Origin: an uncultured Bacilli bacterium
GTDB taxonomy: Bacteria > Bacillota_I > Bacilli_A > RF39 > UBA660
Assembly (NCBI GenBank): GCA_944331895.1
Contig: CALVIX010000008.1
Location: forward strand, 1-42,279
Direction of reading: 5' to 3'
Length of the DNA stretch: 42,279 nucleotides
Position 1 is the stretch's first letter; every line of letters starts with the position of its first letter. Under the pieces are notes generated by a model, which did no database searches, was not told where the DNA came from, and saw only the letters and a list, made by a program, of their open reading frames with translations. Position numbers and translations under genes: made by a program. This document shows positions 3,607 through 42,125 of this stretch, in pieces.

Positions 3607-4959
3607 CTATTTAATTATTTTTTTTACTTCTTCCATATCGTCAAAATGTATTTTTTCATTTCCTATGACTTGATAAGTTTCATGCCCTTTTCCAAGCAAT
3701 AACAGTATATCACTTTTTTGTAACATTTGTATACCCCTATCGATCGCTTCTTGTCTATTTACAATCTTTTCATAGTTTGTATTGTCAAGTCCATGTTCCA
3801 TACCCTCTAAAATACGTTCCGGATCTTCATGCCTTGGGTTATCACTTGTAAAAATTACATAATCTGATAAATCCGTAGCGATTTTTGCCATCTCAGGTCT
3901 CTTCGCTCGATCTCGGTCTCCACCACAACCAACAATCGTATAAATTTTTCCATGCGGAATTTCTAATACTGCACGAATGGCATTTAAAACCGCATCTGGT
4001 GTATGAGCATAATCGACAATCACAAGTGCATCGTGATAACGTACGCATTCCATCCGTCCTCGGGGTTCTTCCAGTAGAGAAACTGTTTTTCTTATCTCAT
4101 TTTCATCTATTTTTAAATCTTCTAGCAGCATAATAACAACGAGCATGTTATATAAATTATGCTTCCCAATTAACTTCATTTGATACGTTTTCTCAGCTCC
4201 GTTGGAAACGACAAAATCAGTATGCCCTAAACTATATGTCATATTCGTAATTCGATAGTCACCATTGTGAAATCCATATGTAACATTATGATTTTCAGGA
4301 AGTAAAAAATAGTGATGATAACCATCATCCACATTGATAAAACATCTTCCTTGCCCTTTTAGTTTTCGAAATAACTTTTGCTTCGCAAGTGCGTAATTTT
4401 TCATATTGCCATGATAATCTAAATGATCCTGTGTTAAATTTGTAAATACGACATAATCAAATTCTAATCCTTCTACTCTATTCATATCCAAAGCGTGACT
4501 ACTGACTTCCATTGCGACAAATTCGCAGCCTTCTTTTTTACATGTCAATAACATGTCATATAAGTCTAGAATATCTGGTGTCGTATTGGATAGATCACAT
4601 ATTTTTTTATCGATATAAAAACCGATGGTTCCAATGTACCCACACTTTCTACCAAGTCTATTTAATGCTTGATGAATGAGATAACAACTTGTCGTTTTCC
4701 CGTTCGTACCCGTAATTCCAATGAGTTTTAAATCCTTAATTTGATCATAATATTCATTTTTTAAAGTTTGTACTAAATATTCATGTGTATCTTTTACTAT
4801 ATATGTCTCAACCGAATATAATCCTTCTTCTACTACAACTTTACTAGCCCCTTTTTTAATCGCATCCTCAATATAGGAGTGTCCATCGTGATTTACTCCA
4901 CGTAGTGCGACAAAAATATCACCTTTTTTCACTTTTCTAGAATCCGTTTTGTATTTCAA
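3607..4959 (-). CDS. murE: UDP-MurNAc-tripeptide synthetase MurE, DNPR type (predicted meso-DAP adding)
   Basis: 450 aa Mur ligase that adds the third stem residue to UDP-MurNAc-L-Ala-D-Glu. The P-loop GTNGKTT is at 84-90, EVSSHAL at about 151-157, the likely carbamylated lysine in YALAKQKLF at about 193, and DYAHTPDA at about 316-323. The specificity motif is DNPRHEDP at 373-380. DNPR is the signature of meso-diaminopimelate ligases, its Arg contacting the second carboxylate. The start is TTG at 4959 with AGAGGTGAT upstream; no better codon exists. It is cotranscribed with mraY. A second, different MurE lies at 5310-6698. Confidence 0.93.
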   Translation of the reverse strand: MKYKTDSRKVKKGDIFVALRGVNHDGHSYIEDAIKKGASKVVVEEGLYSVETYIVKDTHEYLVQTLKNEYYDQIKDLKLIGITGTNGKTTSCYLIHQALNRLGRKCGYIGTIGFYIDKKICDLSNTTPDILDLYDMLLTCKKEGCEFVAMEVSSHALDMNRVEGLEFDYVVFTNLTQDHLDYHGNMKNYALAKQKLFRKLKGQGRCFINVDDGYHHYFLLPENHNVTYGFHNGDYRITNMTYSLGHTDFVVSNGAEKTYQMKLIGKHNLYNMLVVIMLLEDLKIDENEIRKTVSLLEEPRGRMECVRYHDALVIVDYAHTPDAVLNAIRAVLEIPHGKIYTIVGCGGDRDRAKRPEMAKIATDLSDYVIFTSDNPRHEDPERILEGMEHGLDNTNYEKIVNRQEAIDRGIQMLQKSDILLLLGKGHETYQVIGNEKIHFDDMEEVKKIIK

Positions 4960-5043: not shown

Positions 5044-5310
5044 TCATTTCACAAGATATTGTTTTTCAGGATGCTTTTGAAACCAATATGCAGCATAGCT
5101 ACAACGCGGAACGCACTTTTTTTGAAGTGGCTCTAAATAAGTGATAAAAGCCTCCATCAGTTTTTGCGCTAAATGTTTCCCTCGATAAGCTTCATCGACA
5201 TATGTATGCGTTACGACAATCAGTTCTTCCTCTTCCTCAAAACATAATCTTCCGATGATTTTTTCATGATCTATTATTTGAACTTCATCTTCTTTTATTT
5301 TTATCACCAT
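5044..5310 (-). CDS. Small GNAT-family N-acetyltransferase-like protein (YjdJ type)
   Basis: 88 aa, the size of the short GCN5-related family that consists of little more than the acetyl-CoA binding core. DEAYRGKHLAQKLM (about 39-52) matches the pyrophosphate-binding motif A, and CSYAAYWFQKHPE (about 70-82) is the typical C-terminal signature. The substrate is unknown. Its ATG overlaps the murE2 stop (TAATG), so the genes are translationally coupled. That hints at a role near cell-wall precursor or diamino-acid metabolism, but this is inference from position only. Confidence 0.8.
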   Translation of the reverse strand: MVIKIKEDEVQIIDHEKIIGRLCFEEEEELIVVTHTYVDEAYRGKHLAQKLMEAFITYLEPLQKKCVPRCSYAAYWFQKHPEKQYLVK

Positions 5311-6698
5311 TACATATTTGCTCCTGACGTTTCTTTTTCTTTTAAATATTTTTCCACTTCTTTTCTATCATTGAACGGAATTCTCTGATCTTTATATATG
5401 ATTACTTCCTCATGCCCTTTTCCAAGAATCAATAAAATATCATTTTCTTGTAATAACTCGATACCACGAGCTATCGCCTTCCCACGATCTAAGATCACTT
5501 CGTAATTTGATTGTTTTAAACCTTTGATCATATCATCGACAATCTGATTTGGATCTTCATTGTGAGGATCATCAATTGTAATAATCGCATAGTCAACTAA
5601 CTTGGTTACCAAATTCGTCATAAGCGGTCTTTTTAAACGATCTCGATCTCCAGTACAGCCAAAGACTACAAATATCTTTCCTTTCGTCAGCGGTTTTACC
5701 GTCGTAATAATCTTTTCGACTGCATCCGGTGTATGTGCATAATCGATGATAATATTATTTGATTTATATGGTACCGTCTCCATGCGACCAGCAGGCGCTT
5801 TCAAAGTCGGTATGACACTTAATAATGTCTCAGGATCAATTTCTAACTCTGTTAAAACTACGATCGTAACAAGTAGATTATAAATATTGTAATCTCCTAG
5901 CATCGGTGATACGACATCATATTCTTTTCCTAAGTGGCGATATGTAAATGTCGTATGAATGTGATTCATATGGTGTTTTATAACTTGGTAATCACCACTT
6001 TGAAATCCATATGTAATATTATGATTCTCTGGAAGCAAGTACACATCTTTATATGCATCATCCGCATTTACAATTGCGATTCCATTTGGTTTTAACATGT
6101 GAAATAACTTTTGTTTCGCAAGTGCATACTGTTCCATCGTCTTATGGAAGTCCAAATGATCCTGCGTCAAGTTAGTAAATACCGCATAATCGAATTCTAA
6201 TCCTTCTACTCTGCGTCTACAAAGTCCATGACTGCTTACTTCTAATACGACATATTCTACCTTTTGCTCTACACAAAAAAGGAAAATATTATATAGTTCT
6301 AATATGTTTGGTGTTGTATTTGGCAAACTTCTGATTTTATCCCCAATATAAAAACCAACAGTTCCAACATAAGCTGCTTTTTTTCCTACTTTATTTAATG
6401 CATTGTGAAGGAGAAATGCACTCGTCGTCTTTCCGTTTGTACCTGTAATTCCAATGAGCTTTAAACTCGATATCTCTCTATCATAATTTTCTTTTAAATA
6501 ATTGATCAAATAAGTTAAAGTATCGTCGACAATTACAGTTTCTACCTCATAGTTTCCTTCTTCACATATAATTTTAGTCGCTCCGTTTTCGATTGCTTTA
6601 TCGATGTATTGGTGTCCATCTGTATCAACTCCACGCAAAGCTAAAAAAGTATCTCCTGGTTTTACCTTTCTCGAATCTATTTTTATTGCTACTTCCAT
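5310..6698 (-). CDS. Second MurE-family ligase with DDPH specificity motif
   Basis: 462 aa, a full-length Mur ligase paralogous to the murE next door. The P-loop GTNGKTT is at 86-92, EVSSHGL at about 153-159, YALAKQKLF at 191-199 and DYAHTPDA at about 319-326. The third-residue motif reads DDPHNEDP (376-383) instead of DNPRHEDP. L-Lys-type MurE enzymes carry non-Arg variants such as DNPA or DDPN, so this copy probably adds a residue other than meso-DAP (Lys, Orn or similar), which is inferred. ATG at 6698 is chosen (AAGGTG 5 nt upstream) over GTG at 6713. It has its own SigA promoter and is coupled to the GNAT gene. Confidence 0.88.
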   Translation of the reverse strand: MEVAIKIDSRKVKPGDTFLALRGVDTDGHQYIDKAIENGATKIICEEGNYEVETVIVDDTLTYLINYLKENYDREISSLKLIGITGTNGKTTSAFLLHNALNKVGKKAAYVGTVGFYIGDKIRSLPNTTPNILELYNIFLFCVEQKVEYVVLEVSSHGLCRRRVEGLEFDYAVFTNLTQDHLDFHKTMEQYALAKQKLFHMLKPNGIAIVNADDAYKDVYLLPENHNITYGFQSGDYQVIKHHMNHIHTTFTYRHLGKEYDVVSPMLGDYNIYNLLVTIVVLTELEIDPETLLSVIPTLKAPAGRMETVPYKSNNIIIDYAHTPDAVEKIITTVKPLTKGKIFVVFGCTGDRDRLKRPLMTNLVTKLVDYAIITIDDPHNEDPNQIVDDMIKGLKQSNYEVILDRGKAIARGIELLQENDILLILGKGHEEVIIYKDQRIPFNDRKEVEKYLKEKETSGANM

Positions 6699-6720
6699 AC
6701 ATTCACCTTCCACTTATTAT

Positions 6721-7339: not shown

Positions 7340-7690
7340 TTAGTCACGCGGCTTAAAAATCAGTGCAAAGATAAAGGAAAATACAATGGCGGCAATAATT
7401 CCCGTAGATGTTAAATCAAACATTCCCATTGCAAGCCCCATAATACCAATATCGCTAGCACGAGCAAGAGCACCATGAATCAGTAAATGTCCAAAACTTG
7501 TAATTGGAACCAATGCACCACCACCAACCCATAAAATAACTTTGTCGTAAAATCCAAACATATCTAAAAATGTTCCGATTACAACAAATAATGTTGTTAC
7601 ATGTCCAGGGGTTAATTTCGTATTATCTAAAATGATTTGACCAAGTAAACAAACAAATCCTGCAAACAAAAATGAATAGACATAGATCAT
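7340..7690 (-). CDS. spoVAE: Stage V sporulation protein AE (SpoVAEb type)
   Basis: 116 aa integral membrane protein of the SpoVA complex, which moves Ca-dipicolinate into the forespore and out at germination. It has several hydrophobic helices with the family pattern LTPGHVTT, GGGALVPITSFGHLL and a KPRD C-terminus. It resembles SpoVAC in architecture, as expected of this family pair. The start overlaps the spoVAD stop by 4 nt, giving a C-D-E operon. Only these three members of the SpoVA set are present here. They are the conserved core of spore formers. Confidence 0.92.
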   Translation of the reverse strand: MIYVYSFLFAGFVCLLGQIILDNTKLTPGHVTTLFVVIGTFLDMFGFYDKVILWVGGGALVPITSFGHLLIHGALARASDIGIMGLAMGMFDLTSTGIIAAIVFSFIFALIFKPRD

Positions 7691-8676
7691 TCAATCGCCT
7701 CCAAACTAATAGCATGTGCGATACTTGGAATAGATAACTTCTGATTCACCATCGTCGGCGACATGAGAGCACCAGTTGCAATCAATAGCACATGTCGATA
7801 TTCTTTTTTTCTCATCTTGTCAAAAATATAACTATATGTGACAAGTGGAGCACATGCAGGACCACTACTACCCGCCATACGATCTTCACTTTCCACATCA
7901 TATAATAGACATCCTGTATCTTCATAATTTTTTAACGTGATATTATACTCTGTCTGCATAAAATCAATTAGAATTTGTTTCCCATAATCCCCTAGATCTC
8001 CTGTTAAAATCAAATCATAATATCCTATTTCCCTTTTCGTATCTTTTAGATGTTGATACAAAGTATGTGCAGCTGCTGGTGCCATAACTGCTCCCATGTG
8101 AAACACATCTTTCATCCCTAAATCTTGCACCGTTCCTATCGTGGCACTATCTACTTTAATATTTGCTTTATTATAACTTAAATAAGCGCTAGCACTCCCT
8201 GTTGCTGTAATGGTTGCCGTCTTCGGTTTAGGTCCTCCGTATTCTACTGGATAACGAAATTGTTTTTCTGCCGCATTGTTGTGCGAAGAAACACTCGTAA
8301 TACAGTTTTTAATCATTTTTGACTCTATCATATTCGCACCAATGATGAGACCTTCAACACTGCTTGCACAAGCACTGTATACTCCTAAAAAAGGAATACC
8401 AAGACGACTTGCGGCGTAGTTTGATGCGGTAATTTGGTTTAACAAATCACCTGATATAAATAAATCCACATCAAATCTAGTCTTTCCTATTTTTAAAAGA
8501 AGTAAATCTACACTCTCTTCGATCAATTTAGATTCCGCTTGCTCCCAAGTCGGCTGTTTAAAATAAAGATCATCGTAACTTTTGTCAAAATAATTATTGA
8601 GCGGTCCTTTTTGTTCGTAAGGACCCGTTATCGTACTTGTTTCATTGATATATACATTTTTATAGCGAATTGTCAT
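7687..8676 (-). CDS. spoVAD: Stage V sporulation protein AD
   Basis: 329 aa soluble protein with a thiolase-like fold. In Bacillus, SpoVAD binds dipicolinic acid and works with the membrane subunits SpoVAC and SpoVAE in the forespore inner membrane. Visible elements are the thiolase-like nucleophile region VYSACASSVEGL (about 99-110), YPVEYGGPKPKTATITATGS, a late GSSGPACAPLVTY and the C-terminal GALMSPTMVNQ. AGGAGGAT lies 5 nt before the ATG. It sits 2 nt after spoVAC and overlaps spoVAE. Confidence 0.95.
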   Translation of the reverse strand: MTIRYKNVYINETSTITGPYEQKGPLNNYFDKSYDDLYFKQPTWEQAESKLIEESVDLLLLKIGKTRFDVDLFISGDLLNQITASNYAASRLGIPFLGVYSACASSVEGLIIGANMIESKMIKNCITSVSSHNNAAEKQFRYPVEYGGPKPKTATITATGSASAYLSYNKANIKVDSATIGTVQDLGMKDVFHMGAVMAPAAAHTLYQHLKDTKREIGYYDLILTGDLGDYGKQILIDFMQTEYNITLKNYEDTGCLLYDVESEDRMAGSSGPACAPLVTYSYIFDKMRKKEYRHVLLIATGALMSPTMVNQKLSIPSIAHAISLEAIE

Positions 8677-8678
8677 AT

Positions 8679-9119
8679 TTATCCTCCTAACACTATCAAC
8701 CGAATAAAACCTACAATGTAAGCACTGACGACTCCGAAGATAATCACGGATCCTGCTAATTTAAACATGTTAGCTCCAATTCCTGTAACCAGTCCTTCCT
8801 TTCGATACTCTAATGCCGCACTCATCATAGCGTGCGCAAATCCCGTAATTGGTATAATTAACCCAGCTCTAGCAAAACTAACCCATTTATCAAAAAAGCC
8901 AAGTGCCGTTAACAAACACCCTGCAAATACGAGCGTAATGATCATAAAGACAGAAGCATTCGAAGTTGAAATATGGAAGTAATATGAATAGATATCGATT
9001 AAGAATTGTCCGATCACTCCCATCATTCCTCCTGTTAAAAAAGCAATCATTCCATGATAAAGACGAGGTTCTTTTGGCGTATGTTGTGCTACTAGATCTT
9101 TATACTTGTTCTTTTCCAT
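8679..9119 (-). CDS. spoVAC: Stage V sporulation protein AC
   Basis: 146 aa polytopic membrane protein. SpoVAC is known in Bacillus as a mechanosensitive channel component for Ca-dipicolinate passage. The short soluble N-terminus contains the family motif LVAQHTPK (about 9-16), followed by four or more hydrophobic segments with GFFDKW and IIPITGFAHAM. It is the first gene of the spoVAC-D-E operon, with TTAGGAGGAAT before the ATG and a SigG/SigF-like promoter about 20 nt further upstream. Confidence 0.94.
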   Translation of the reverse strand: MEKNKYKDLVAQHTPKEPRLYHGMIAFLTGGMMGVIGQFLIDIYSYYFHISTSNASVFMIITLVFAGCLLTALGFFDKWVSFARAGLIIPITGFAHAMMSAALEYRKEGLVTGIGANMFKLAGSVIIFGVVSAYIVGFIRLIVLGG

Positions 9120-9173: not shown

Positions 9174-9203
9174 AAAAAACAGAACTAATTTAATAGTCCT
9201 GTT
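9174..9203 (-). terminator. Terminator overlapping the end of sigF
   Basis: Minus strand AACAGGACTA pairs with TAGTTCTGTT (one G-U), 6-nt loop, then TTTTTTG. The sigF TAG stop (9185-9187) is inside the hairpin. Confidence 0.75.
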
Positions 9204-9841
9204 CTCATCTTACATTTTATTTTGTCTTCTTTTCTCGATACTTGTACCTGACTCATTCCTAATATTTTAGAAACCTCAGATTGTGTCATATCTTCCATAT
9301 ATCTCGCTTCGATCAGACGTTTTTCCTCGTCTGTCAATTGTTGAAGTTGTTCTTTTAAAGCCAGTAATTCATCGATATGAGTTTCTCTTTTATCAGCAAT
9401 CGTCTCATGCAACGACATCTCTTTTCCATCCATACAGATCGGTTCATCGATACTCCTCGTCGGTTGCCGACTCATAAGTGCCTCTCTAATTTCGTAAGGT
9501 GTAACACCAAGATAATCCACAAGTTCTTCCACGCTTGGCTCTCTTCCATAAGTCTGTGCCAAAACAATCATGGCACGTTCTATCCTTAAATTTAATTTTC
9601 GGATATTACGACTTACTTTCATCGTTTTATCTTCTGCTACTAACTTATTCATTTCTCCCCATATATGTGAATATGCGAAAGTAGAAAATTTAACATTCAT
9701 ATTAGGATCGTAGTTTTCATATGCCTTCATAAGTCCAATCACACCTTGTTGAAACAAATCTTCTTTATAAGGATAATAATCAAAATAGCGAAACATAGAA
9801 TAAATCAAATTTTCATACTGCTTGATAAATTCATTGTTCAT
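9185..9841 (-). CDS. sigF: Forespore RNA polymerase sigma factor SigF (SigF/SigG family)
   Basis: 218 aa, shorter than Bacillus SigF (about 255) because it starts close to region 2. Region 2: DLFQQGVIGLMKAYENYDP and KFSTFAYSHIWGEM. Region 3: VSRNIRKL through RSIDEP. Region 4: the helix-turn-helix MTQSEVSKILGMSQVQVSR, where SQVQVSR is typical of SigF/SigG. It is assigned SigF, not SigG, because it follows spoIIAA. Its ATG lies 1 nt after the spoIIAA TGA, so translation is probably coupled. No spoIIAB lies between them. Confidence 0.88.
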   Translation of the reverse strand: MNNEFIKQYENLIYSMFRYFDYYPYKEDLFQQGVIGLMKAYENYDPNMNVKFSTFAYSHIWGEMNKLVAEDKTMKVSRNIRKLNLRIERAMIVLAQTYGREPSVEELVDYLGVTPYEIREALMSRQPTRSIDEPICMDGKEMSLHETIADKRETHIDELLALKEQLQQLTDEEKRLIEARYMEDMTQSEVSKILGMSQVQVSRKEDKIKCKMRTGLLN

Positions 9842-9842
9842 A

Positions 9843-10190
9843 TCAATAACTCATATAGGAAAGAGCTGTCAATTCATCGCTCGTTTCATACATATAGTTT
9901 AATAAATGACTATTTTCTATTCTATGTTTTACTAAATCATTTTTTAATCCACATAACATCACTCTTCCATGACTCGCTTTCGCAAGTTCATAATGTTTCA
10001 GTAACGCATTGATTCCTCTCATATCGATCACATCAAGCCCTTCCACATTAAATACAATATTCCCAATGCCATAATCTTTCATCACGTGAGTAACTTCTTG
10101 TTCAAGCACAGGAATCGTACTTTCGATCAACTCACCGATCAATCGAATAAACAACACACCCTTTCGGTACTCCATATCTATCTCTAACAT
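9843..10190 (-). CDS. spoIIAA: Anti-anti-sigma factor SpoIIAA lacking the phosphoserine
   Basis: 115 aa STAS-domain protein, in near gapless register with Bacillus SpoIIAA (recalled sequence): a LEIDMEYRKGVLFIRLIGEL start and NIVFNVEGLDVIDMRGIN core. In Bacillus the core reads DSSG, with Ser58 phosphorylated by SpoIIAB. Here residues 56-59 are DMRG, so Arg is at 58. ATG 10190 (GAGGTG 6 nt upstream) is preferred over GTG 10199. The usual order is spoIIAA-spoIIAB-sigF, but here spoIIAA runs directly into sigF. It should therefore be locked in a form that the classical kinase cannot inactivate. Confidence 0.88.
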   Translation of the reverse strand: MLEIDMEYRKGVLFIRLIGELIESTIPVLEQEVTHVMKDYGIGNIVFNVEGLDVIDMRGINALLKHYELAKASHGRVMLCGLKNDLVKHRIENSHLLNYMYETSDELTALSYMSY

Positions 10191-10280
10191 GTTCTTCACC
10201 TCGCCTATCTAATGTAGCACACAATTTTTTCCTTTTATACAAATTCGACAAAACTAGAATTCCTTTTCAATTGACAAAAT

Positions 10281-11756
10281 TTATCTTTTTTCATACCTGT
10301 ACTTTCTATATGCAAGATAGAATATTAAGAATATTAAAAGAATGAATAATAAATACCACCACATCTTAGCATCGATTCCTATCTTTTTATTCGGAAAAGA
10401 GAGTTTATCTTTTAATTCTTTTCTTTGCTCATATAATTTTATCGCCTGTTCCCTCAATTTGGATAACCGACCCTCTCTTTCTTTAGAATCGTTAAGTCTA
10501 CTTACTTTTTCGATATCCCGCTCGATCAATTTTATTTCTTCTTGAACTTCCTGATACTGTTTTTGATCGTTTTTTAAAATATCGACAACAATTTTCTTTT
10601 TTACTTTTTTAAATCCTAAATCGAAAACAATATCGTAAACTCCATTCTTCGAAAGATCTAAATCCGTTTGAAATGTAACTTCTCTCGTTTTTTCCTTAAT
10701 GAAAGAATCGATGGAAAAATCTTCTTCCGTAATAATCCAGTCTCCAGATAACACTACTTTATCTCTCGTACGATAGCGATACCATTCTTGATAGTCATCT
10801 TTTATCTTATGTTGATACTGCTCTGGTTTTTCTTTAGTGTACGCTTCTGTTTCATGTCTTGTTTTCCTATACTGACGATAATAAGTATCACGATAACGAT
10901 AAAATATTCCATATAACACTTCCGTTGTGATTGTCTTATTTACCGCTTCTTTAGAATACTGAAATTCTCTCCATTTAGGATTTCCCATCTGTAGAGAAAA
11001 AGATGTAAATTCTATTTGACAAATATCGTCCTTTGTGTCGCTAGTAAACTTTGCTTTAAAGGGATTATACACAAAAAATTGAGTAGGAACCTCTGTTGTA
11101 TCGGTAAAACCATAAGTTAATCTTTTTGCACTCTTTCCTGTATCATATAGATAAATTTCCACACTAATATCATCAATATCATACTCTTTTTGTAAATCGA
11201 GAATCAACGTGGATGATTCCATCATTTCATTTCCAAGATCTTTTGTATTTCCATCTTGAATTCCATCAACCAAATTGGAACTACAAGTATCACAAGTTGC
11301 CCGATAATCGACTTTCTGACCTTTCGCATAGATACGTATCTCTGGGATGTTTAAACGTTCTCCAGATCCTTCCGCATCATAAAAATAAATATATCTGATT
11401 GGCCGCATCGTTCGAAAACGATACAACTGCTCTTTTTCTATCTGTCGTTTTTCCATATTTTCTGGTTGCTGCATACTCCAATCTGACCAATCTCCCTGTT
11501 TAGATTGTTTTAAATCTTGTTTTGGATATTCATCTGTAACATCTCCTAACAAAGTATAATCTCCGTAAGTTATCTCATCATAATACCAGCGATATCTTTT
11601 TTCATATTCTACTTGAACCGTATCACTTTCTCCTATTTGTTCCATCGACCAATCATGAAATGGTCCATACTCTCCATAATATATTTCTTCCTTTGCAGAC
11701 ACTGTTGTTAGAAAAAACAAACTAACTAGAATACATCCTATTAAAAATTTCTTCAT
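10281..11756 (-). CDS. Exported, C-terminally anchored protein with WS/YRYR repeats
   Basis: 491 aa. A signal peptide (1-21, cleavage after TVSA) leads to an extracellular region. It holds three degenerate repeats in which a Trp(-Ser) is followed 20-30 residues later by an aromatic/Arg cluster: W36/RYRW, W93/LYRFR and W262/FYRYRD. A beta-rich stretch (about 118-250) with CDTC (155-158) is vaguely discoidin-like. Then come a coiled coil (about 400-455), one transmembrane helix (about 465-483) and a basic tail. The function is unknown; surface display and carbohydrate or protein binding are guesses. The 40803-42125 protein shares the repeat. Confidence 0.7.
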   Translation of the reverse strand: MKKFLIGCILVSLFFLTTVSAKEEIYYGEYGPFHDWSMEQIGESDTVQVEYEKRYRWYYDEITYGDYTLLGDVTDEYPKQDLKQSKQGDWSDWSMQQPENMEKRQIEKEQLYRFRTMRPIRYIYFYDAEGSGERLNIPEIRIYAKGQKVDYRATCDTCSSNLVDGIQDGNTKDLGNEMMESSTLILDLQKEYDIDDISVEIYLYDTGKSAKRLTYGFTDTTEVPTQFFVYNPFKAKFTSDTKDDICQIEFTSFSLQMGNPKWREFQYSKEAVNKTITTEVLYGIFYRYRDTYYRQYRKTRHETEAYTKEKPEQYQHKIKDDYQEWYRYRTRDKVVLSGDWIITEEDFSIDSFIKEKTREVTFQTDLDLSKNGVYDIVFDLGFKKVKKKIVVDILKNDQKQYQEVQEEIKLIERDIEKVSRLNDSKEREGRLSKLREQAIKLYEQRKELKDKLSFPNKKIGIDAKMWWYLLFILLIFLIFYLAYRKYRYEKR

Positions 11757-38951: not shown

Positions 38952-39419
38952 TTACTCTCCACTACCCTCAGCTGGTGGCACTGTGCAATCGTCTGCATTT
39001 GTCCACTCACCTTGAGCATTCATAGAGAATGAATATCCTGAAATTGTAATACATGAACCATTTCCAACAGTTCCATTTGTAATTACTAAATTGTGACGAG
39101 CTGGTTTTGTTCCCTTATAATTGATATCTGCTTCCTTTTTCGTTCCAGCCGCCCCACTATTCATTAATGGCGTGAATGTCACTTTACCCACTTCTGTTTG
39201 TGGTGAGTCTGGTGAAATTGTCGTATCTTTGATCATTTCAGTAGCAATTGTATTTTCCATTGCTTTTACATAACCATAAGCACCATTCTTAGCTGATCCC
39301 TTTCTAGCATCGTCGATTACTCCCATGATAAGTGGTGTTGCAATCAATGCAATTACTGCTAAGATTACGATAACTGCTAATAATTCAATCAACGTAAATC
39401 CTTTTGAATTTGACTTCAT
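38952..39419 (-). CDS. Type IV pilin-like protein 1
   Basis: 155 aa. Prepilin leader MKSNSKG, then the processed Phe and FTLIELLAVIVILAVIALIA, with Glu at +5: a class III-like hydrophobic assembly helix. The amphipathic part DDARKGSAKNGAYGYVKAME follows, and the C-terminal domain has a Cys pair (GSC...DDC) for a disulfide loop, ending PPAEGSGE. It is expected to be processed by a prepilin peptidase and polymerised; no peptidase or ATPase gene is in the window. AAGGAGGAGAAT precedes the ATG. Own promoter and terminator. Confidence 0.88.
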   Translation of the reverse strand: MKSNSKGFTLIELLAVIVILAVIALIATPLIMGVIDDARKGSAKNGAYGYVKAMENTIATEMIKDTTISPDSPQTEVGKVTFTPLMNSGAAGTKKEADINYKGTKPARHNLVITNGTVGNGSCITISGYSFSMNAQGEWTNADDCTVPPAEGSGE

Positions 39420-39447
39420 ATTCTCCTCCTTCTATTATTACAATAAT

Positions 39448-39476
39448 AATATACCATTATTTCATCTCGGAATCAA
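39448..39476 (-). promoter_or_regulatory. Promoter of pilin gene 1
   Basis: Minus strand TTGATT (39471-39476), 17-nt spacer, TATATT (39448-39453). The same hexamers and spacing recur before all three pilin genes. Confidence 0.7.
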
Positions 39477-39487
39477 GTACTTTAATA

Positions 39488-39518
39488 CAACTCTTATGTA
39501 AATTGCGTTGCTTTTTTT
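39488..39518. repeat. Conserved element upstream of pilin gene 1
   Basis: CAACTCTTATGTAAATTGCG plus TTGCTTTTTTT recurs at 40111-40141 with one visible substitution (AAACTGCG). It lies between a pilin terminator and the next pilin promoter. Confidence 0.7.
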
Positions 39519-39524
39519 AGATAA

Positions 39525-39546
39525 CAAAAAGGAGAACATCTCCTTT
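39525..39546 (-). terminator. Terminator of pilin gene 2
   Basis: Minus strand AAAGGAGA-TGT-TCTCCTTT then TTG. Confidence 0.8.
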
Positions 39547-39562
39547 CTATATTTTCATCAAA

Positions 39563-40042
39563 TTAAGCACCAGTTTTTGGACATCCTAAAGTGTTTAATT
39601 CTTCATTTGTTGCATCTTGCCATTCTCCAGAACTCATTTTGAATCCATATCCTGAAACAACAATACATGAATCATCTCCAACAGTACCGTTTACAATTAT
39701 CAATTTATGACGGTCTGGTGATGTACCTTTGAAGTTAATTGGCTTCCCATTGGCAGGTGTACCTATAGTAGTGCTTCCGTCATTTTTACGTGTATCAAAT
39801 ACAACTTTTCCAACTGTTGTTTGGTTTTTAGCTGGTGAAATCTTCGTATCTTTGATCATTTCAGTAGCAACTGTGTTTTCAAATGCTTTGACATAACCAT
39901 AAGCACCATTCTTAGCTGATCCTTTTCTAGCATCGTCGATTACTCCCATGATAAGTGGTGTTGCAATCAATGCGATAACTGCTAAGATTACGATAACTGC
40001 TAACAACTCAATCAACGTAAACCCTTTTGAATTTGTCTTCAT
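39563..40042 (-). CDS. Type IV pilin-like protein 2
   Basis: 159 aa, with the leader MKTNSKG and the same FTLIELLAVIVILAVIALIA helix and KGSAKNGAYGYVKA segment as its neighbours. The C-terminal domain differs: DTRKNDGSTTIGTPANGKP, then GDDSCIVVSGYGFKMSSGEW and a late Cys in LGCPKTGA. It lacks the PPAEGSGE tail shared by copies 1 and 3. It shares the promoter, RBS and upstream element with copy 1 almost base for base. Role as for pilin 1: predicted subunit of a surface filament. Confidence 0.88.
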   Translation of the reverse strand: MKTNSKGFTLIELLAVIVILAVIALIATPLIMGVIDDARKGSAKNGAYGYVKAFENTVATEMIKDTKISPAKNQTTVGKVVFDTRKNDGSTTIGTPANGKPINFKGTSPDRHKLIIVNGTVGDDSCIVVSGYGFKMSSGEWQDATNEELNTLGCPKTGA

Positions 40043-40070
40043 ATTCTCCTCCTTCTATTATTACAATAAT

Positions 40071-40099
40071 AATATACCATTATTTCATCTCGGAATCAA
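40071..40099 (-). promoter_or_regulatory. Promoter of pilin gene 2
   Basis: Minus strand TTGATT (40094-40099), 17-nt spacer, TATATT (40071-40076), with a spacer identical to that of pilin gene 1. Confidence 0.7.
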
Positions 40100-40110
40100 G
40101 ATCCTTGACA

Positions 40111-40141
40111 CAACTCTTATGTAAACTGCGTTGCTTTTTTT
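40111..40141. repeat. Conserved element upstream of pilin gene 2
   Basis: Second copy of the CAACTCTTATGTAAA-type element found at 39488-39518. Absent before pilin gene 3. Confidence 0.7.
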
Positions 40142-40146
40142 AGATA

Positions 40147-40172
40147 ACAAAAAAGGAGAATTCCCTCCTTTT
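40147..40172 (-). terminator. Terminator of pilin gene 3
   Basis: Minus strand AAAAGGAG-GGAATT-CTCCTTTT then TTG. Confidence 0.85.
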
Positions 40173-40183
40173 AATTCGATAAA

Positions 40184-40669
40184 TTACTCTCCACTGCCCT
40201 CAGCTGGTGGAACTTTACAATTTGAACTTGCTAATTCGGTATCTGTCATCTCAACCCACTCACCAGAACTCATTTTGAATGCATATCCAGAAACTACGAT
40301 ACATGAACCATCTCCAACAGTACCATTTACAATGCTCAAATGATGACGGTCTGGTGCGGTTCCTTTATAGTTGATTGTTTTATTTTCAACATCTACACTT
40401 CCTCCAGCATTCGTTCTTGAAGAAAATGCGACTTGACCAACAGTTGTTTGCTCTCCCTTTGGTGATATTGTCGTATTTTTGATCATCTCAGTAGCAATTG
40501 TATTTTCCATTGCTTTTACATAACCATAAGCACCATTCTTAGCTGATCCCTTTCTAGCATCGTCGATTACTCCCATGATAAGTGGTGTTGCAATCAATGC
40601 GATTACTGCTAAGATTACGATAACTGCTAACAATTCAATCAACGTAAATCCTTTTGAATTTGACTTCAT
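40184..40669 (-). CDS. Type IV pilin-like protein 3
   Basis: 161 aa, with leader MKSNSKG, cleavage before Phe, Glu at +5, and the common N-terminal about 57 residues. Over the first about 170 coding bases it differs from copy 1 at only two positions by eye. The middle diverges (FSSRTNAGGSVDVENKT), then GDGSCIVVSGYAFKMSSGEW, close to copy 2, and the Cys/PPAEGSGE end, close to copy 1. It thus looks like a mosaic of its neighbours. It is the first of the three in transcription order and sits just after the 440-aa repeat protein gene. Confidence 0.88.
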   Translation of the reverse strand: MKSNSKGFTLIELLAVIVILAVIALIATPLIMGVIDDARKGSAKNGAYGYVKAMENTIATEMIKNTTISPKGEQTTVGQVAFSSRTNAGGSVDVENKTINYKGTAPDRHHLSIVNGTVGDGSCIVVSGYAFKMSSGEWVEMTDTELASSNCKVPPAEGSGE

Positions 40670-40780: not shown

Positions 40781-40804
40781 AAAAAACATCCCATAGGATG
40801 TTTT
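40781..40804 (-). terminator. Terminator overlapping the stop of the 440-aa protein gene
   Basis: Minus strand AAAACATCC-TATG-GGATGTTTTTTG. It begins at the stop codon (40803-40805). Confidence 0.85.
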
Positions 40805-42125
40805 AAGCTTTTCTATATTTATATGTGTATTTTACCTCTACTTTTACATTTGGTTGCTTTACAAACTCTTCTAATGTCGTTCCAACCGTCTGTTCAAATT
40901 TACTTGCACTCACGTAATTATCTAATAATGGTAAAGAATATATATCGTATTTATATCTAAAACGTGATCTTACTTGTATTTCTTCTGTACGGTATCCACG
41001 ATTCGTATCATCGAGTCTTGATTCTTCATCGTAGCTAGACCATGACGTTGTAATCATCGTTTCATCATCACGATATGGGAAACTTGAATTCGTAACAGAA
41101 CTATACGATATGTACCGTCTTGTTGCACCGTTACACCAACGCCACATTAAATCCGTATAAGAATACATTGGAGACTCATTATCTTTTTCAGTGTATTTTT
41201 CTCCAGGTTGCTCGACTGCATACTTTCCATTTTTCCAGTATACTTTCTTTTTACCATCCATGTAATACCAACGATATCCGATCTCTCTCGTAATAGAACG
41301 ATAGTCTTTTTCATCCGGGTAAGAAAGTGACCATGGAGATGGATCCGATTCAATTTGTGATGTTTCATCTTTTGTTGCATATCCGCTTGGCTGCTCGGAA
41401 CTATATGCAGAACAATTCGCATTCGGGTTAGAATAGAATTTCCACATTTTATCCTGATAACGATAGTAATTTTTCTTCTCCTCTTCGATCGTTACAATAT
41501 GTGCATCTACTGGTGCTTCTGGAATCAAATCCATTTGTTTTGGTAAGTTTATCTTATATTTTTTATCTTTTTTAGATTCCAATTGATCTTCCGTCAAATA
41601 ATCACTCCACATACCGTAATTAGTTTCAAACGTGTAATAATTATAAGAAGGTACCAACTCTACATACACATTCCCAGATGGCATTTTATCTGATTCTTTC
41701 CAGTTTCCATATCTTTCTTCCGTCGCACAGAAACCACAACCAGTTAGATTCACTGCCATATGATAATCTTCTTTATATTTTGTAATCGTCACTTTTCCTT
41801 TGCAAGCATCTTTTCCATTGTTTGCTTCTTCACTCGATAGCGTACCGTCTTTAATTAAATCATCGATATCCAATGTAATAGATTTTCCTTCTACTGTTGG
41901 TAATATTTTTTGTTCTCTTGCAGAAGAAAGTGCTGCACTCTCGATCGTATCTTCGATTTTATTGCATTTCTTATTTTTACTGCTCTTTTGTACAATAATA
42001 AAAATAAAAATGATAATAAAGACAACAAGAGCAACAATACCGATTCGAATCATTAAAGTTTTTTTATCTATTTCCTTATGTACAATTGGAGCCCCTTCCG
42101 CATTTACATATCCTTCTTGCTTCAT
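40803..42125 (-). CDS. Membrane-anchored surface protein with pilin-like region and WS/YRYR repeats
   Basis: 440 aa. A cytoplasmic N-terminus and one membrane helix (about 25-46) lead to an extracellular region. Residues about 54-130 (C54, LPTVEGKSI, DDLIKDGTL, C108, C130) resemble the head domain of Firmicutes pilin-like proteins. A CGFC motif is at 130-133. Two about 70-residue repeats follow: 221-288 (YRYQDKMWKF, DET, PWS, YRWYY) and 321-393 (YSYTDLMWRW, DET, SWS, RFRYKY), with a further WS at 173. It shares the WS-to-aromatic/Arg motif with the 10281-11756 protein. It lies next to the pilin array. The function is unknown; a pilus-associated or adhesive role is inferred. Confidence 0.7.
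   Translation of the reverse strand: MKQEGYVNAEGAPIVHKEIDKKTLMIRIGIVALVVFIIIFIFIIVQKSSKNKKCNKIEDTIESAALSSAREQKILPTVEGKSITLDIDDLIKDGTLSSEEANNGKDACKGKVTITKYKEDYHMAVNLTGCGFCATEERYGNWKESDKMPSGNVYVELVPSYNYYTFETNYGMWSDYLTEDQLESKKDKKYKINLPKQMDLIPEAPVDAHIVTIEEEKKNYYRYQDKMWKFYSNPNANCSAYSSEQPSGYATKDETSQIESDPSPWSLSYPDEKDYRSITREIGYRWYYMDGKKKVYWKNGKYAVEQPGEKYTEKDNESPMYSYTDLMWRWCNGATRRYISYSSVTNSSFPYRDDETMITTSWSSYDEESRLDDTNRGYRTEEIQVRSRFRYKYDIYSLPLLDNYVSASKFEQTVGTTLEEFVKQPNVKVEVKYTYKYRKA

Follow-up and report, generated by a model that had tools for sequence, protein, structure and literature searches.

A SigF operon lacking spoIIAB in an order of uncultured Bacilli retains a diverged SpoIIAA and a predicted Spo0A-controlled promoter

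The SpoIIAB-SpoIIE-SpoIIAA cycle is the textbook means of telling one cell of a genetically identical pair that it is the forespore. A 2012 survey lists spoIIAA, spoIIAB, and spoIIE for every spore former it covered (PMC3533761). A 2024 survey of RF39 described spoIIAB and spoIIE as reduced or absent and predicted spores with markedly different regulation; the loss of these two genes in RF39 has already been reported (PMC10868615). The survey records presence and absence at the level of annotation, and its passages on the subject that were found do not mention loss of the SpoIIAA serine, selection, a Spo0A-box promoter, or SigF without SpoIIAA. For the retention and rewiring of SpoIIAA, the serine loss, the selection, and the promoter, no report was found in the open-access literature searched.

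We analyzed a 42,279-nucleotide stretch of DNA (the window), which is contig C8 of a metagenome-assembled genome (MAG; 1.12 Mb, 83% complete) that was searched as a whole with family profiles. Comparisons were drawn from the order of uncultured gut bacteria to which it belongs, represented by 385 genomes from 118 genera (305 genomes of high quality). Judging from MAG names, we take this order most likely to be GTDB RF39; the 80 best-named loci come from MAGs called Bacilli, Mollicutes, or Tenericutes and include UBA660, Candidatus Faecisoma, and Candidatus Pelethosoma. In the window, a single nucleotide separates the stop codon of a spoIIAA-like gene from the sigF ATG (9841), with no open reading frame in between; spoVAC, spoVAD, and spoVAE follow sigF in that order, and there is no spoIIAB at the locus (Table 1). 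The ATG at 10190 on the minus strand was assigned as the spoIIAA start, an in-frame GTG at 10199 falling inside the likely ribosome-binding site. This is the arrangement given in a preliminary description of the DNA, and it is not peculiar to one genome. The same spoIIAB-less gene order recurs in about 77/80 independent loci and in 42/45 further loci, so the state is order-wide, and the sequencing or assembly error that sister genomes might have revealed is not the explanation. In most loci spoIIAA and sigF overlap or are separated by short gaps. The only sampled lineage in which the pair is clearly split has metK between the two genes (L005, L053, and L061; genome G001 and relatives).

Several neighboring genes were recorded in passing. 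A homolog of the 491-aa protein lies directly upstream of spoIIAA in 45/80 relatives, and the window holds two members (10281-11756 and 40803-42125) of this family of 440- to 500-aa proteins with a signal peptide, a membrane anchor, and repeated YRWY/YKWY motifs. Elsewhere in the window are three tandem type IV pilin-like genes with nearly identical N termini (KGFTLIELLAVIVILAVIALIATPLIMGVIDDARKGSAKNGAYGYVKA; 38952-40669) and a tandem pair of murE-like genes adjoining mraY (3607-4959 and 5310-6713).

Table 1. Features of the spoIIAA-sigF locus in the window
Feature	Position	Strand	Remarks
spoVAE(B)	7340..7690	-	Profile match
spoVAD	7687..8676	-	Profile match
spoVAC	8679..9119	-	TIGR02838, 169.9 bits, above cut-off
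sigF, 218 aa	9185..9841	-	Diverged; ~28 N-terminal residues of other SigF proteins missing (region 1.2)
spoIIAA-like, 115-aa STAS protein	9846..10190 (stop codon 9843-9845)	-	DMRG replaces DSSG
DMRG, residues 56-59 from ATG 10190	10014..10025	-	At the DSSG phosphorylation loop; Ser58 to Met, Ser59 to Arg
N-terminal signature EYRKGVLFIRLI, residues 7-18	10137..10172	-	Conserved stretch specific to the order
Extended -10-like element TGCTACATT	10211..10219	-	32 nt downstream of TTGTCGA
Spo0A box TTTTGTCGAA	10244..10253	-	Only exact copy within the window; predicted from sequence
491-aa protein	10281..11756	-	Signal peptide and C-terminal membrane helix seen on inspection; matched no family

The spoIIAA-like product is recognizable as SpoIIAA-like by family, fold, and position. 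TIGR02886 was its best-ranked family (48.7 bits, under the equivalog cut-off of 114.75), and Pfam STAS matched above cut-off (48.3 bits). An AlphaFold model (pLDDT 93.4) has the STAS fold; its best PDB match is SpoIIAA (1thn_B, TM 0.92), and the top five matches are all SpoIIAA (TM 0.90-0.92). The gene stands directly before sigF and spoVA genes in the window and in most relatives. At the phosphorylation loop, DMRG aligns without gaps to D57-S58-S59-G60, with B. subtilis numbering running one ahead (Asp56 here is Asp57). The preliminary description had correctly placed DMRG at residues 56 to 59, but its exact register with the Bacillus protein was off by one, and the replacement of Ser58 by Arg that it reported does not hold. 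In the PDB, the loop is DASG in the S-to-A chain 1tid and DSSG in wild-type 1th8, and mutagenic primers for the SpoIIAA homolog SypA put the phosphosite at D+1 (PMC10120452); the phosphoserine, S58 in SpoIIAA (PMC11418112, PMC3517971), is therefore the first serine after the aspartate, and it is Met that takes its place, with Arg at Ser59. The broader claim that the target serine is absent stands, both serines of DSSG having been replaced.

SigF carries Sigma-70 regions 2, 3, and 4 and best matches the SigF/SigB-F-G family, scoring 169.1 bits against TIGR02885, under the equivalog cut-off of 321.45. The same genome encodes a separate, better-conserved SigG (352.6 bits) that stays near its model, whereas SigF has diverged and is N-terminally shortened. 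SigF Glu149, which we take to correspond to SigG E156 in a locally uncertain alignment, is E in 8/8 outgroup SigF proteins versus 3/24 in the order (18/78 in a larger set). A SpoIIAB-refractory mutation of SigG maps to E156 (PMC3174212). On the sequences compared, this SigF position does not vary where SpoIIAB is present, and it has lost that invariance in the order. No SigF positions were found that differ when spoIIAA is missing (four examples).

A profile search of the order detected SpoIIAB in 0/385 genomes and none of the 118 genera. An HATPase_c_2 (RsbW-type) kinase domain was present in only 6/385 genomes, in every case in a frame that also holds a PP2C domain, and SpoIIE/PP2C domains were present in 9/385, comprising these six and three weak matches. 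SpoIIE was found in 0/37 family members of the first genome set. In other families, SpoIIAB scored above cut-off in 8/23 genomes, all eight with a SpoIIE/PP2C match. The family search of the window's genome also found no SpoIIAB or RsbW, a result that is weak alone for an 83% complete MAG and is carried by the order-wide absence. The missing kinase gene of the preliminary description is thereby confirmed beyond the locus, and neither element of the case that could have overturned it, an spoIIAB elsewhere together with a second SpoIIAA keeping the serine, was found in the window's genome. The loss also covers SpoIIE, a point left open there. Judged from gene content, the SpoIIAB-SpoIIE partner switch on SigF is dismantled throughout the order.

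Several candidates were set aside during this census. The SpoIIE-domain matches in six genomes were rejected as SpoIIE: the two that were read are PP2C-HATPase fusions, and the other four were assigned from matching frames. These fusions (L172 and L173, in G316 and G362, and those of G150, G211, G268, and G345) may be private partner-switch modules. Short HATPase frames (G028, G016, G014, G013, and G031) were read and rejected as SpoIIAB, as all resemble pieces of histidine kinases. No second STAS protein with a phosphoserine was found; the second STAS protein in G001 and G016 is 80 aa long and lacks DSSG. This mini-STAS lies between yqfC-like and yqfD-like genes (L148 and L149; G001:C43:42500-44300 and G016:C6:21500-23200), its first half resembles SpoIIAA of the order, and about twenty genomes give two matches to the SpoIIAA profile.

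These data bear on whether SigF is now held by a substitute anti-sigma factor or kinase that has diverged beyond recognition or has another fold, with SpoIIAA releasing SigF by binding alone or through modification of another residue. SpoIIAA is constrained, and its Asp57 and Gly60 are nearly invariant, a trait of partner-switch proteins; homology searches would miss a partner with a different fold, and the PP2C-HATPase fusion does occur in six genomes. However, 379/385 genomes lack an RsbW-type domain, the short ATPase frames that were read point to histidine kinases, the operon contains no extra small conserved gene, and SigF E149 is no longer fixed. We consider such a replacement unlikely.

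The predicted promoter region is conserved. The window contains a Spo0A box and a -10-like element at 32-nt spacing, a pair that occurred in none of 100 shuffles, and the distance from TTGTCGA to the TGnTAAATT element is likewise 32 nt in 56/63 relatives having both. TGTCGAA, the known Spo0A box, lies upstream within 150 bp in 81/92 distinct relatives, versus 0.8 expected from mononucleotide shuffling. In four genera with sigF but without a recognizable spoIIAA (L130, L132, L133, and L134), the box precedes sigF itself. A 0A box at a conserved distance from a -10 element is consistent with a Spo0A-controlled promoter, and the earlier suggestion that SigF is timed by transcription gains evidence from it.

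SpoIIAA positions were scored as lost or kept against residues shared by all eight outgroup proteins compared, including the B. subtilis protein, whose sequence agrees with the PDB alignment. Seven SpoIIAA proteins from other families keep DSSG. Across the order, the structural positions G20, D57, G60, and G76 are retained, and the positions linked to SpoIIAB and SpoIIE are lost (retention: D23, 9%; F55, 4%; S58, 8%; S59, 6%; R67, 0%). The contact roles of D23, F55, and S59 are taken from the comparison with SypA, in which S59 is described as a contact of the SpoIIAB catalytic Arg (PMC10120452), and that of R67 from PMC11418112. New near-invariant positions have appeared at E8, K/R11, G12, F15, and R17. 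Because the 80 loci had been found by a pattern containing E8 and G12, we resampled 67 proteins without the pattern, about one per genus and still recovered through similarity to the family; E8 was present in 64, G12 in 65, R17 in 66, and D57 in 65. An alignment of sister proteins around residue 58, proposed in the preliminary description, showed Ser58 kept in 8/96 proteins of the first sample and 6/67 of the second. SpoIIAA dN/dS was mostly 0.02 to 0.15, similar to that of SigF (Nei-Gojobori; close, non-independent pairs; highest listed value, 0.31). Pairwise distances of SpoIIAA and SigF were correlated given SpoVAD (partial r = 0.63; SpoIIAA-SpoVAD given SigF, 0.16; 0/500 permutations), a relationship that could partly stem from shared fast evolution and linkage. 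A new conserved surface under purifying selection adds weight to the earlier suggestion of a new partner, and SpoIIAA has probably taken on a different job.

Could SpoIIAA instead be a decaying relic, kept by translational coupling to sigF, with SigF under Spo0A-driven transcription alone? The close spacing of the two genes in most loci would suit such coupling, and SpoIIAA is eroded or absent in several genera with the promoter unchanged there. Four sampled genera have sigF but no recognizable spoIIAA, and SpoIIAA is therefore not universally needed. Against decay, dN/dS in close pairs is about 0.05, as low as for SigF; new invariant positions have arisen rather than general drift; and recognizable SpoIIAA-like proteins persist in 302/385 genomes. 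A relic thus seems quite unlikely.

Much of the remaining sporulation program is in place. Of 36 sister genera, 31 have Spo0A, 33 have SpoIIR (searched with PF09551), and 31 have a strong SigG; TIGR02871, which is YlbJ, served as a further sporulation marker. The window's genome has SigG and YlbJ, and the profile search of this 83% complete MAG did not find Spo0A or SpoIIR. One might propose that the operon is a leftover, with no sporulation role, in lineages that have lost spores. There is no cultured spore former, and a classifier gave RF39 MAGs a sporulation probability of 0%, but spoIIAB was among the genes present in all of its predicted spore formers (PMC12536801). SigG, SpoIIR, Spo0A, YlbJ, and SpoVA are nevertheless kept across most genera, SigG and SigF-like genes are missing as well from the three sister genera that have no SpoIIR, an all-or-none loss there, and the 2024 survey predicts spores in RF39 (PMC10868615). 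We regard a spore-loss origin as very unlikely. The chance of an assembly or sequencing artifact is negligible: the MAG to which the window belongs is fragmented, but the recurrence of the arrangement in dozens of independent MAGs refutes it.

The reading we prefer, and hold with moderate confidence, is that the old switch has been dismantled, that Spo0A-driven transcription would be the main event switching SigF on, and that SpoIIAA would serve as a phosphorylation-independent accessory of SigF. Using the new conserved N-terminal hairpin surface, SpoIIAA would attach to a non-kinase partner (SigF itself, RNA polymerase, or some other protein) and so might adjust the timing or place of SigF action, with inhibitor, chaperone, and activator as candidate senses. 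In some genera SpoIIAA has eroded or vanished, leaving sigF behind the same promoter. It is also possible, although we would sooner doubt it, that SpoIIAA is a direct phosphorylation-independent regulator of SigF, either an anti-sigma factor or a forespore-specific activator, in which case a switch of two proteins plus Spo0A would replace the SpoIIAB-SpoIIE cycle. We infer that the locus may constitute a simplified forespore commitment switch. An order that keeps SigF, SigG, SpoIIR, and Spo0A without the cycle offers a natural experiment on the cycle's purpose and makes it testable whether confining SigF to the forespore requires a septal phosphatase. Sporulation predictors that rely on spoIIAB will miss this order.

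STAS proteins acting outside the usual scheme have precedents. SypA, BtrV, and RbaV, reviewed as noncanonical STAS-only proteins (PMC8256260), resemble SpoIIAA of the order in acting on partners beyond the usual release of an anti-sigma factor, but they keep the phosphoserine and the kinase, and the order's SpoIIAA has neither. MlaB, the STAS subunit of MlaFB, is a precedent for direct binding of a non-kinase partner (PMC7367683); in contrast to the SpoIIAA described here, MlaB has an ABC ATPase as its partner and is not known to be linked to sigma factors. Relative to the SpoIIAA-SpoIIAB-SigF-SpoIIE switch of Bacillus and Clostridium, the order has no SpoIIAB, no SpoIIE, and no phosphoserine, and it has rewritten contact residues and an N-terminally shortened SigF. 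What the two share are SpoIIAA and SigF, orthologous by their position before spoVA, the STAS fold, and a Spo0A-linked promoter.
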